DNA from: an uncultured Candidatus Altimarinota bacterium
Lineage (GTDB): Bacteria; Patescibacteriota; Gracilibacteria; CAIRYL01
NCBI GenBank assembly: GCA_947311245.1
Contig: CAMZKJ010000005.1
Span: forward strand, 1-44,942
Reading direction: 5' to 3'
DNA: 44,942 bases
The notes under the pieces are model-generated. The model was not told the origin of the DNA. It did not search any database and saw only the letters and a program-made list of their open reading frames with translations. The position numbers and the translations under genes are program-made. The stretch's first letter is position 1. Each line of letters starts with the position of its first letter. This document shows positions 5,546 through 32,255 of the stretch, piece by piece.

Positions 5546-5956
5546 TTATAAATTTCCTACTTGCTTATGAATTTTATTCAAAGAACTTAATGCTCCATTC
5601 GCTCTTGATGGAGACAGAGATTCAATTATACCGAGTTCTTGTAAATCGTTCACAGAAAATTCTAAAATTTCTTTTTTTGTTGCATCTTTAAATCCTATAA
5701 TAAAAAATGCAAGAAATCCTTTAGAAATTGCGCCATCAGCATCAGCACAAATGAGAATTTTATCTTCAGTATTTTTAACCGAAACCCACGCATTTGAAGC
5801 ACATCCTAAAATTTTATTTTCTTCATTTTTTTCTTCATCGGATAATTGATTTATTTCTGGAATTTCTCCAGCAAGCTCTATGAAATATTGAAATTTTTCC
5901 GTTTGAGTGTCACACCCTTTTAAATCATCTGCTAAATCATATAGATTTTGTAACAT
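5546..5956 (-). CDS. sufE: SufE-like cysteine desulfurase sulfur acceptor
   Basis: The protein has 136 residues, the normal SufE size. C52 in ILGCASNAW corresponds to the sulfur-accepting cysteine (C51 in E. coli SufE), and the C-terminal SLSPSRANGALSSL matches the conserved LSPSRxNG segment of the family. SufE takes persulfide sulfur from the desulfurase SufS and passes it to the SufBCD Fe-S scaffold; none of those partners is in the window. It is the first gene of a two-gene unit with the methyltransferase. Confidence 0.85.
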   Translation of the reverse strand: MLQNLYDLADDLKGCDTQTEKFQYFIELAGEIPEINQLSDEEKNEENKILGCASNAWVSVKNTEDKILICADADGAISKGFLAFFIIGFKDATKKEILEFSVNDLQELGIIESLSPSRANGALSSLNKIHKQVGNL

Positions 5957-29186: not shown

Positions 29187-29579
29187 TTATTTAATCACAG
29201 ATTTCACCCACTCTTCAATCGTTAATGTCGCTTGAGGATTTGGCGTTTCCATAAATGAAATAACAAATTTATCTGAAAACTCTGCAACTCCAATAGACCG
29301 AGGTCGAACCGCTAAAACCAACGCATTGGGTAATTCTTTCCCAAAACAAAATATAATATTTTGAGCATCTATAATTTCTGAATTTATTTCTCCTAATTCT
29401 CCTAAATTTTTTGTATGAGAAAAATGATCAAAGGTGCTAATAAAAACTGCAACTGAATGATTTTCTATTTTTTCTTTAAAATATGAAATTATTTCATTGA
29501 TTGAAGAAAATCGAGACTCTGTTTTCAGAATATCCAGAGTAAATACTGGATATTTTTCTTTAAAAGTAACTTTTTTCAT
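29187..29579 (-). CDS. Small conserved protein of unknown function
   Basis: The protein has 130 residues, soluble, without signal peptide. Notable segments are FKEKYPVFTLDI, VAVFISTFDHFSHTK, NIIFCFGKELPN and AVRPRSIGV, followed by FMETPNPQA and EEWVK. From memory this resembles the family annotated DUF6858, but I cannot confirm that. It is divergent from feoB and shares the 141-base region that contains the 7-1-7 palindrome, so co-regulation with iron uptake is possible. It probably forms a transcript with the downstream permease. Confidence 0.65.
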   Translation of the reverse strand: MKKVTFKEKYPVFTLDILKTESRFSSINEIISYFKEKIENHSVAVFISTFDHFSHTKNLGELGEINSEIIDAQNIIFCFGKELPNALVLAVRPRSIGVAEFSDKFVISFMETPNPQATLTIEEWVKSVIK

Positions 29580-29681: not shown

Positions 29682-29696
29682 TGAAATAGTATTTCA
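29682..29696. promoter_or_regulatory. Candidate Fur-family operator upstream of feoB
   Basis: TGAAATA-G-TATTTCA is a perfect 15-bp inverted repeat in the 7-1-7 layout of Fur, Zur and PerR boxes. It begins just after a possible -10 (TATAAA, 29675-29680) and ends 24 bases before the feoB ATG, so a bound repressor would cover the transcription start. The second gene of the operon encodes a Fur-family protein. Confidence 0.5.
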
Positions 29697-29720
29697 ATTT
29701 TGGCTTATAAAATCATTCAA

Positions 29721-31589
29721 ATGTCTCAAAAAAAAATTTATTTAATAGGAAATCCAAATGTTGGAAAAACAACGGTGTTTAACGCACTTACCGGAGAAAG
29801 ACAAAAAACAGGAAATTACATAGGAACAACCATTGCAACAGTTGAATCACATGTTAAAAATGAAAAATATGCACACTATACAATTTGTGACATTGCAGGT
29901 GTCTACAATTTTGAAGACAGAAAAGGAGAAGAAAAAATTGCGTGGAATAGCATTGAAAATGCCATGATGGAAGAAAACACTGTGTTTGTACAAGTAATAA
30001 ATGCAGGACAATGGAAGCAATCTCTTTCTTTAACTCTTGATTTGCAAAAAAAAGGAATTCAGCCAATTTTATTTTTTAACACAAAAAAAACAGATATAAA
30101 TCTTGGTGAAGAATTTTATACAATATTGTCGAAAGAGCTTAATCTGCATGTTTTTTATAACGATGTAGAAAGGTTGAGCAATTCAAAATTCCAAGAAATA
30201 TTTTTTGAAAAAATAAATAACATAAATAGAACTATAGATGGAGAACAGAACAAAGAGAATTACACTCTTAACATTCCAAAAACATTTGCAAATTTAGCAG
30301 AGCAAAATAAATATATTTCAAATATATTTGCAAAACATCTTTTATCTCAAAAGGGAGAAAAAAATACAAAAAATACAAAAAAAGTAAAAATAAGTTGGAT
30401 TGATGCAATATTACTTCATTCTTTTTTTGGGATTCTAACATTTTTCATTGTATTGTATTTCATTTTTGAAATGACATTTACGGTTGGAGCAATTCCAATG
30501 GATTTTATAGATGCTCAAACTTCAGCGCTGCAAACGTATTTAAGCTCTGTGCTACCAGATAATTTATTAACATCTCTTTTGGTTGATGGAATTGTGGCAG
30601 GAGTTGGTGGAACACTTATTTTTCTTCCAAATATTGTTATATTATTCTTCTTTTTATCGCTTTTAAAAGAAAGTGGATACTTAGCACGAACATCATTTTT
30701 ATTCGATATATTTTTTGAAAAAATAGGAGTTTCTGGAAAAGCATCAGTGCCACTTCTTATGGGATTTGGGTGTAATGTTCCGTCTATAATGGCTATTAAA
30801 AGTTTTGAAACAAAAAAAGAGCAAGTAATTGTAACAATGATGTCTTTATTTATGAGTTGCGGGGCAAGGCTTCCTGTTTATACGTTACTGCTTGCGGTCT
30901 TTATTCCTGAACAGTATCAAGGAGAAGTATTATTTGGGATTTATTTACTAGGAATTTTGGTATCGTTTATGACTGGGAAATTGTTAAATATTGTGTATAA
31001 CCCACGACAACAACAAAAATTAAAAAGTTATGAAATGCCAAATCTAATACTTCCAAATATTATAAAAGCAACAAAAGAAGCATGGCAAAAAGCAAAAATG
31101 TTTATAGTAAAAGCTGGAACATTTATTTTACCAGTAAGTGTTGTTTTGTGGGGATTATTCACATTTCCACAGGTCGAAATGCCAAAAGGACAAGAAAACT
31201 TTGCGATAGAACATTCGTACGGAGCAAGCATTGGAAAAGCCATTCAGCCAATTTTTGCACCAATGGATTTTGATTGGAAAATTTCAACAGCACTTTTATC
31301 TGGAATTGCTGCAAAAGAAGTAATAGTTACAACATTTGCACAGCTGTATAACGCAACAGACGAAGAACAATCGTTACAAGAAAATATTAAAAATTCTGAA
31401 AATTTCAGCTTTCCTACGGCATTAGCACTTATCATCTTTGTATTATTATATACTCCTTGCATGGCAGTGGTTGGAGTTATTAGAGGAGAGCTTGGAAATG
31501 GATGGGCCTTATTTTCAATTGCATATCCATTTATAATCGCATGGATTTTTGCATTTATAGCATTTACTATAGCAACATATTTTTTATAA
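29721..31589 (+). CDS. feoB: Ferrous iron transport protein B
   Basis: I choose the ATG at 29721 (622 residues); a TTG at 29700 would add seven residues not seen in the family. The N-terminal GTPase has G1 GNPNVGKTT (10-18), switch I YIGTTI and G3 DIAG where DxxG is expected. The G4 motif is odd: NTKKTD rather than NxxD. The membrane part has both Gate motifs (GFGCNVPSIMA and SCGARLPVYTLLLAVF) and about eight to ten helices. It is shorter than E. coli FeoB (773) and lacks the Cys-rich tail. It imports Fe2+. The FeoA-Fur gene follows after 6 bases. Confidence 0.93.
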   Translation: MSQKKIYLIGNPNVGKTTVFNALTGERQKTGNYIGTTIATVESHVKNEKYAHYTICDIAGVYNFEDRKGEEKIAWNSIENAMMEENTVFVQVINAGQWKQSLSLTLDLQKKGIQPILFFNTKKTDINLGEEFYTILSKELNLHVFYNDVERLSNSKFQEIFFEKINNINRTIDGEQNKENYTLNIPKTFANLAEQNKYISNIFAKHLLSQKGEKNTKNTKKVKISWIDAILLHSFFGILTFFIVLYFIFEMTFTVGAIPMDFIDAQTSALQTYLSSVLPDNLLTSLLVDGIVAGVGGTLIFLPNIVILFFFLSLLKESGYLARTSFLFDIFFEKIGVSGKASVPLLMGFGCNVPSIMAIKSFETKKEQVIVTMMSLFMSCGARLPVYTLLLAVFIPEQYQGEVLFGIYLLGILVSFMTGKLLNIVYNPRQQQKLKSYEMPNLILPNIIKATKEAWQKAKMFIVKAGTFILPVSVVLWGLFTFPQVEMPKGQENFAIEHSYGASIGKAIQPIFAPMDFDWKISTALLSGIAAKEVIVTTFAQLYNATDEEQSLQENIKNSENFSFPTALALIIFVLLYTPCMAVVGVIRGELGNGWALFSIAYPFIIAWIFAFIAFTIATYFL

Positions 31590-31595
31590 AAACAT

Positions 31596-32255
31596 ATGAA
31601 ACATTTACATGAAATACAAAATAAAACAGTTATTGTTTTAGAGCGATGTGGAAACGAAGAAGAAAAAAAATACTTAAACAATATTGGAATTGACTCTGAA
31701 AGCTTAATTTCTGTTGTGAAAAATGAAATTAATACAAATCAACCACTTTTGATAGAAGTAAACAATGCACGATTTATGCTGAGTCGAGATTTGGCAAAAA
31801 AAATATTGGTAGATAATGTATTAGCCAAGCAAAAAATTTTATTTAAAGGAAATAAAACACAGCAACGAGAAATAATTCTAGGTGTTATTCAAAATTTTAC
31901 GCATCATTTTTCATTAAAAGAATGTATAAAAAAAGTAGAAGAAGTTGTAGAAAAAAATAATATGAATAGTCCAAATGCTTCTGAAAATATTGGAGACATC
32001 ACTGTTTACAGAACTGTAAAAGCATTAAAAGAAAAGCATATTTTAGACGAAATAGTACTTCCGAATGGGGAGATAAAATATGAAATTCACAAAGAACATC
32101 ATGATCATATTTTTTGTAAAAATTGTGGAAATATTATTGAGTTTTACAGCGAAGAAATAGAAAATTTACAAAAAGAAATTGCCGAAAAACATGGAGTAAA
32201 ATTATACTCTCATTCACTTACAATGATTGGATTGGAATGTGAAAAATGTAAATAA
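31596..32255 (+). CDS. FeoA-Fur fusion: SH3-like FeoA domain joined to a Fur-family metalloregulator
   Basis: The protein has 219 residues. Residues about 8-74 match FeoA: LERCGNEEEKKYLNNIGI corresponds to the helix and LxxLGM turn, then a V-V strand, LLIEVNNARFMLSRDLAKKI. Residues about 85-219 are Fur: TQQREIILGVIQ, winged helix with ITVYRTVKALKEKHIL, then the metal region H168-H169-D170-H171, C174-x2-C177, E-rich helix, SHSLTMIG and C215-x2-C218. Known: FeoA assists FeoB; Fur represses iron uptake genes with Fe2+. The gene lies 6 bases after feoB. A regulator that also contacts FeoB, or that senses through the FeoA domain, is inference. Confidence 0.85.
   Translation: MKHLHEIQNKTVIVLERCGNEEEKKYLNNIGIDSESLISVVKNEINTNQPLLIEVNNARFMLSRDLAKKILVDNVLAKQKILFKGNKTQQREIILGVIQNFTHHFSLKECIKKVEEVVEKNNMNSPNASENIGDITVYRTVKALKEKHILDEIVLPNGEIKYEIHKEHHDHIFCKNCGNIIEFYSEEIENLQKEIAEKHGVKLYSHSLTMIGLECEKCK

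Follow-up and report, generated by a model that had tools for sequence, protein, structure and literature searches.

In the 44,942-nucleotide stretch of DNA analysed here (the window), the gene directly behind feoB encodes a single chain in which a FeoA domain is joined to a Fur domain. This pair of genes was found in three genomes belonging to two classes of the phylum. In FeoA-Fur two known families are combined in a new way; the system as such is not of a new kind. The chain is probably bifunctional, serving both as a partner of FeoB and, in response to iron, as a repressor of the importer operon to which it belongs. Binding of iron, DNA and FeoB by the fusion is what we infer from its domains and their setting.

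The feoA::fur fusion gene (31596..32255, + strand) is one open reading frame of 219 codons (219 aa), running from ATG to TAA with no internal stops, and its ATG lies 6 bases after the feoB stop codon (31589). Both of its domains exceed their Pfam cut-offs: FeoA (SH3-like, PF04023) over aa 4-73 (31605..31814, + strand) with 34.2 bits (E 2.7e-8, cut-off 23), and FUR (PF01475) over aa 88-210 (31857..32225, + strand) with 95.7 bits (E 2.7e-27, cut-off 23.1). The linker between them is very short (about aa 74-87). The initial annotation, made from the sequence alone, had proposed an N-terminal FeoA and a Fur in one chain 6 bases downstream of feoB; the uninterrupted frame, the two domain matches and the coordinates bear this out, and the upstream gene is feoB by TIGR00437. 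It had also raised the matter of separate feoA or fur genes: no other FeoA or FUR match was found in the window's assembly (885 kb in 54 contigs, 86.7% complete), so that, within the assembled part, both jobs fall on one chain.

That annotation had made the FeoA assignment depend on residues 1-80; residues 1-79, taken alone, score 37.1 bits against PF04023 (cut-off 23). A profile built from the FeoA halves of all three fusions matches the solved FeoA 3e19 at 4.9e-12, aligned over the whole domain, and the Bacteroides fragilis FeoA (BfFeoA, 7r7b) at 2.4e-4. Of the three FeoA domains, that of the window diverges most (34 bits, vs 52.6 in genome G389 and 64.7 in genome G406). Structure prediction of the single chain gave a Fur fold for the Fur half but only low-confidence models for the FeoA half (block pLDDT 41-66 and 37-71), as no homologues of this half were in the alignment used; the FeoA identity of the N-terminal half is based on sequence profiles. 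In BfFeoA, a clamp formed by F23, I27, M30, I59 and L61 has been proposed to contact FeoB (PMC8980893). By alignment, the window has hydrophobic residues at four of these five positions (L27, I30, F60 and L62) and a glutamate (E23) where BfFeoA has F23.

In the Fur half, alignment places the S1 ligands, the structural Zn CxxC...CxxC, at C174, C177, C215 and C218 (the last two just past the Pfam stretch), the S2 ligands at H104, E163, H169, H171 and E182, and the S3 ligands at H168, D170, E189 and H206, the site names being those of the published Helicobacter/Campylobacter Fur scheme. All three sites are present in the window, as had been claimed of the Fur metal ligands. S2 is kept in all three fusions, and the G406 protein lacks two of the S3 ligands. 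All three fusions share the recognition motif TVYRT (136-140) unchanged, and the metal and DNA-contact residues are intact in the window. AlphaFold blocks covering aa 91-219 have pLDDT values of 70-94, and Foldseek matches this half to Fur structures at about 1e-9, including HpFur (2xig) and MSR-1 Fur (4rb2), the latter in complex with the feoAB1 operator. The top NCBIfam scores of the fusion are for iron Fur and not for Zur or PerR, all of them below cut-off, and no DtxR DNA-binding or dimerisation domain was matched in the protein in a Pfam scan to E 1. An 11-residue insertion (aa 117-127; 31944-31976) in the DNA-binding half has no counterpart in the other two fusions or in the ordinary Furs aligned with them.

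The upstream feoB (29700..31589, + strand) encodes a Fe(II) transporter GTPase/permease (TIGR00437, 403.9 bits, cut-off 315.65). Its Gate and FeoB_N domains score above cut-off, and Pfam gave no match to the FeoB_Cyto helical domain. The listed TTG start at 29700 is probably not real and the next in-frame ATG, at 29721, probably the start. The window's FeoB is divergent and lacks the G4 guanine-specificity motif NxxD. The motif is also changed in the fusion-linked FeoBs of G389 and G406 (NQSK and NMIK), but loss of the G4 Asp was rejected as a hallmark of fusion-type systems, since it has also occurred in 4/15 other FeoBs of the phylum. A canonical feoAB(C) arrangement with a separate feoA was not found at this locus; feoB is present, with FeoA only as the 3' fusion. 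Divergent from feoB lies a gene for a DUF6858 protein (29187-29579, 183 bits), which shares the intergenic region described below and could be co-regulated with feoB. Elsewhere the window encodes a SufE-family Fe-S assembly protein (5546-5956), a plausible iron consumer, and a lysA-like gene about 5 kb from feoB.

With translation starting at ATG 29721, the feoB leader contains a candidate Fur operator, the perfect 7-1-7 palindrome TGAAATAgTATTTCA (29682..29696, + strand), in which 10/11 pairs match when the palindrome is extended and whose exact sequence occurs nowhere else in the assembly. Sites upstream of feoB in G389 (TGAGAATgATTCTCA) and G406 (TGAAAATgAATTTCA) are likewise 7-1-7 palindromes of the form TGA...TCA. 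Against the classical consensus TGATAATnATTATCA, the G389 site matches at 12/14 positions (reached in 0.1% of dinucleotide shuffles), the G406 site at 11/14 (1.8%) and the window site at 8/14, with little likeness beyond the TGA...TCA ends. TGA...TCA palindromes at least as good occurred in 0 (window), 0 (G389) and 4 (G406) per 1000 dinucleotide shuffles, the form tested having been chosen after the sites were seen. Any perfect 7-1-7 palindrome arises in the window leader in 7.7% of mononucleotide and 12.8% of dinucleotide shuffles; an arbitrary one is therefore not rare, and the operator claim rests on the TGA...TCA form and its recurrence in three genomes. Taken together, a predicted Fur-type operator geometry is present in front of all three feoB genes, while the window palindrome by itself is a candidate of moderate strength, given its consensus fit and the frequency of arbitrary palindromes. 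Eight further sites with one mismatch occur in the assembly (9 sites in all, vs 1 for the reversed control), and a wider regulon drawn from the operator sequence was rejected, most of these sites falling within unrelated genes or at a distance from their starts.

A search of 353 genomes of the window's class for FeoA and FUR showed that FeoA is rare (13/353 at E <= 0.001, one of them below cut-off) and FUR common (200/353); the two coincide at one place only in the window's genome. A phylum-wide draw of 380 genomes yielded two more fusions, G389:C73 (FeoA 52.6 bits, FUR 115.5 bits) and G406:C102 (FeoA 64.7 bits, FUR 107.9 bits), both from one family of another class, so that a survey of CPR genomes for this architecture beside feoB, as had been proposed, returned two further cases. 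Both genes lie directly 3' of a complete feoB, with gaps of 8 bp in G389 and 29 bp in G406, and their products are 37% (G389) and 30% (G406) identical to the window protein in full-length alignment, or 38% and 32% when measured across both domains. In each of the three genomes the fusion is the only FeoA found; G389 and G406 also have a second, ordinary Fur. The stand-alone feoA of the phylum lies 5' of feoB in 15/15 pairs with readable order, whereas the fusions lie 3'. The G406 fusion is followed after about 4 bp by a gene for a cation diffusion facilitator (CDF; L123 8957-9850), which suggests an operon joining importer, regulator and metal exporter.

The fusion was not found in the third genome of G389's class (3 genomes in total), in two further small classes of the phylum, or among phages, plasmids and viral contigs; a Streptomyces plasmid with a tblastn match to both halves proved on inspection to carry only Fur. 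In other genomes of the window's order, FeoB matches cover no more than the G-domain, and four genomes of the same genus (76-87% complete) are without FeoA. Several relatives in the window's class have an in-frame TGA in their Fur genes, as would be expected of Patescibacteria/CPR, class Gracilibacteria, a small-genome candidate phylum. A genome of the same family (G005) has, at a contig start (L124 2-127), a 42-residue Fur C-terminus that is 63% identical to the window's and adjoins a lysA-like decarboxylase gene; neither feoB nor FeoA was found in that assembly, and the fragment may be the same locus as the window's, cut by the contig end. Outside the phylum, the genome-wide scan was made with short peptide patterns taken from the window's fusion protein, which amounts to a very limited survey; in other groups the fusion could be commoner.

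A tree of 83 Fur domains, with 11 loci from beyond the phylum among them, recovers the three fusion Furs as a single clade (support 98/86). This clade groups with a Campylobacterota Fur (92/65), near proteobacterial Furs, and stands apart from the phylum's ordinary Furs, among which are the second copies in G389 and G406 and those of the window's own genus. The simplest reading of this placement is that the fusion arose once and was then transferred laterally. Co-inheritance of FeoB with the fusion is neither supported nor rejected by the FeoB trees (p-AU 0.31 for a clade with the FeoBs of G389 and G406), which are indecisive because the window FeoB forms a very long branch.

Each half of the chain has well-known counterparts. 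With stand-alone FeoA (PF04023) it shares the Pfam match, the whole-domain alignment to solved FeoAs and the linkage to feoB, but here FeoA is fused N-terminally to Fur and encoded 3' and not 5' of feoB. With iron-type Fur (PF01475) it shares the winged helix, the dimerisation domain, the S1/S2/S3 ligands and a feoB-linked 7-1-7 palindrome, but it has FeoA before the usual N-terminus, together with the 11-residue insertion. FeoA is likewise covalently linked to a Feo-related protein in the FeoA-FeoB fusions of B. fragilis (PMC8980893), where its partner is the transporter and not a transcriptional regulator. DtxR/MntR proteins with a C-terminal SH3/FeoA-like domain (e.g. PgMntR, PMC4805248) also combine a metal-dependent repressor with a FeoA-like domain, but they belong to an unrelated repressor family and have the reverse domain order, and the fusion gene lies directly behind feoB. 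FeoC, a small winged-helix protein, is likewise encoded 3' of feoB in feo operons; the fusion has no FeoC match in the Pfam scan, and FeoC lacks the Fur dimerisation/metal domain. The earlier statement that no FeoA-Fur chain had been described agrees with our search of the open-access full-text literature, which returned none, and no single chain among solved structures matches both domains. The main survey of Feo architectures lists, in its accessible part, FeoA proteins with 'an additional domain', with Fur not named there (PMC8749426).

The reading we consider probable is that the feoB operon would make FeoB together with the FeoA-Fur chain, whose FeoA domain, as FeoB's only FeoA partner, is predicted to dock on the G domain of FeoB, while its Fur domain would dimerise and sense Fe(II) at S2/S3. 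Iron-loaded Fur would then bind the palindrome before feoB and repress the operon, closing a negative feedback loop with joint production of importer, helper and repressor. The intact two-domain frame and its recurrence behind feoB are consistent with this, as are the lack of any other FeoA match in the three genomes and of any other Fur match in the window's, the conserved Fur ligands and TVYRT motif, and the placement of the Fur clade near genuine iron Furs. The mostly hydrophobic FeoA clamp, the CDF gene continuing the G406 operon and the published nucleotide-dependent binding of FeoA to NFeoB in the B. fragilis fusion (PMC8980893) point the same way. The initial annotation had suggested that the chain could tie transporter activity, iron sensing and repression together, and with this the TGA...TCA palindromes that precede feoB in all three genomes agree. 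Against the bifunctional reading stand the poor consensus fit of the window palindrome and the frequency of arbitrary ones, E23 in the clamp, the two missing S3 ligands of G406 and the low confidence of the FeoA-half models; moreover, the second Furs of G389 and G406 could own the boxes in those genomes.

Transcription factors sequestered by transporters are known from Mlc-PtsG and MalT-MalK. These are not homologous to FeoA-Fur and offer a possible functional analogy only, that of a regulator reading transporter state. By this analogy, it is possible, and we put it forward tentatively, that GTP-bound, importing FeoB keeps FeoA-Fur at the membrane and off DNA, so that repression would track not only cell iron but also how far the transporter is occupied, in the way that PtsG acts on Mlc. 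This is the stronger of the ideas in the initial annotation, which had Fur held at the membrane during iron flow; it extends the bifunctional explanation and does not exclude it. The very short linker, the co-production with feoB, the sole FeoA and sole Fur of the window's genome and the nucleotide dependence of FeoA-NFeoB binding (PMC8980893) favour such gating, but a Fur dimer has two FeoA domains and might bind FeoB and DNA simultaneously. The fuller proposal of a one-protein flux sensor, in which FeoB occupancy (via FeoA) and cytosolic Fe(II) (via Fur) would jointly set feo transcription, is rather doubtful.

It is unlikely that the FeoA part has lost its transport role and acts only in cis on Fur as an SH3-like module, in the manner of the C-terminal SH3-like domain of DtxR/IdeR/MntR. 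In favour of it, SH3-like FeoA domains do occur in DtxR-family regulators, with twin FeoA domains described in PgMntR (PMC4805248), and the FeoA half shows its greatest divergence in the window. This cis-only reading is weakened because each fusion lies beside a feoB and no other FeoA was found in its genome. The published Feo survey reports a FeoA or FeoA-like domain for each bacterial feo operon that it identified (PMC8749426), so that a purely cis-acting module would leave FeoB partnerless.

A role in regulating Mn, Zn or a peroxide response, with feoB encoding a transporter of Mn or another metal, has a slim chance. Fur-family members with similar ligands differ in metal, none of the three fusion-linked FeoBs retains NxxD, and some FeoB proteins are Mn transporters (PMC8749426); the Fur clade, however, is placed next to Campylobacterota and Proteobacteria Furs, the best NCBIfam scores, although below cut-off, are for iron Fur, and the G389 site is a classical Fur box. 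A frameshift or assembly error joining two genes, conceivable in a draft of 54 contigs, can be dismissed, because G389 and G406, independent genomes diverged to 32-38% identity, carry the same in-frame fusion directly behind feoB.

The fusion bears on the role of FeoA in FeoB function and on the question whether bacteria sense iron flux in addition to the iron pool. It predicts that FeoA-FeoB binding and Fur-DNA binding are physically linked, and a natural FeoA-Fur chain, recurrent behind feoB with a predicted Fur-type operator, provides a compact test system. In these small-genome bacteria a transport accessory and its regulator are merged in one gene, apparently gained laterally, and one molecule may both help to import iron and switch off the gene of the importer.
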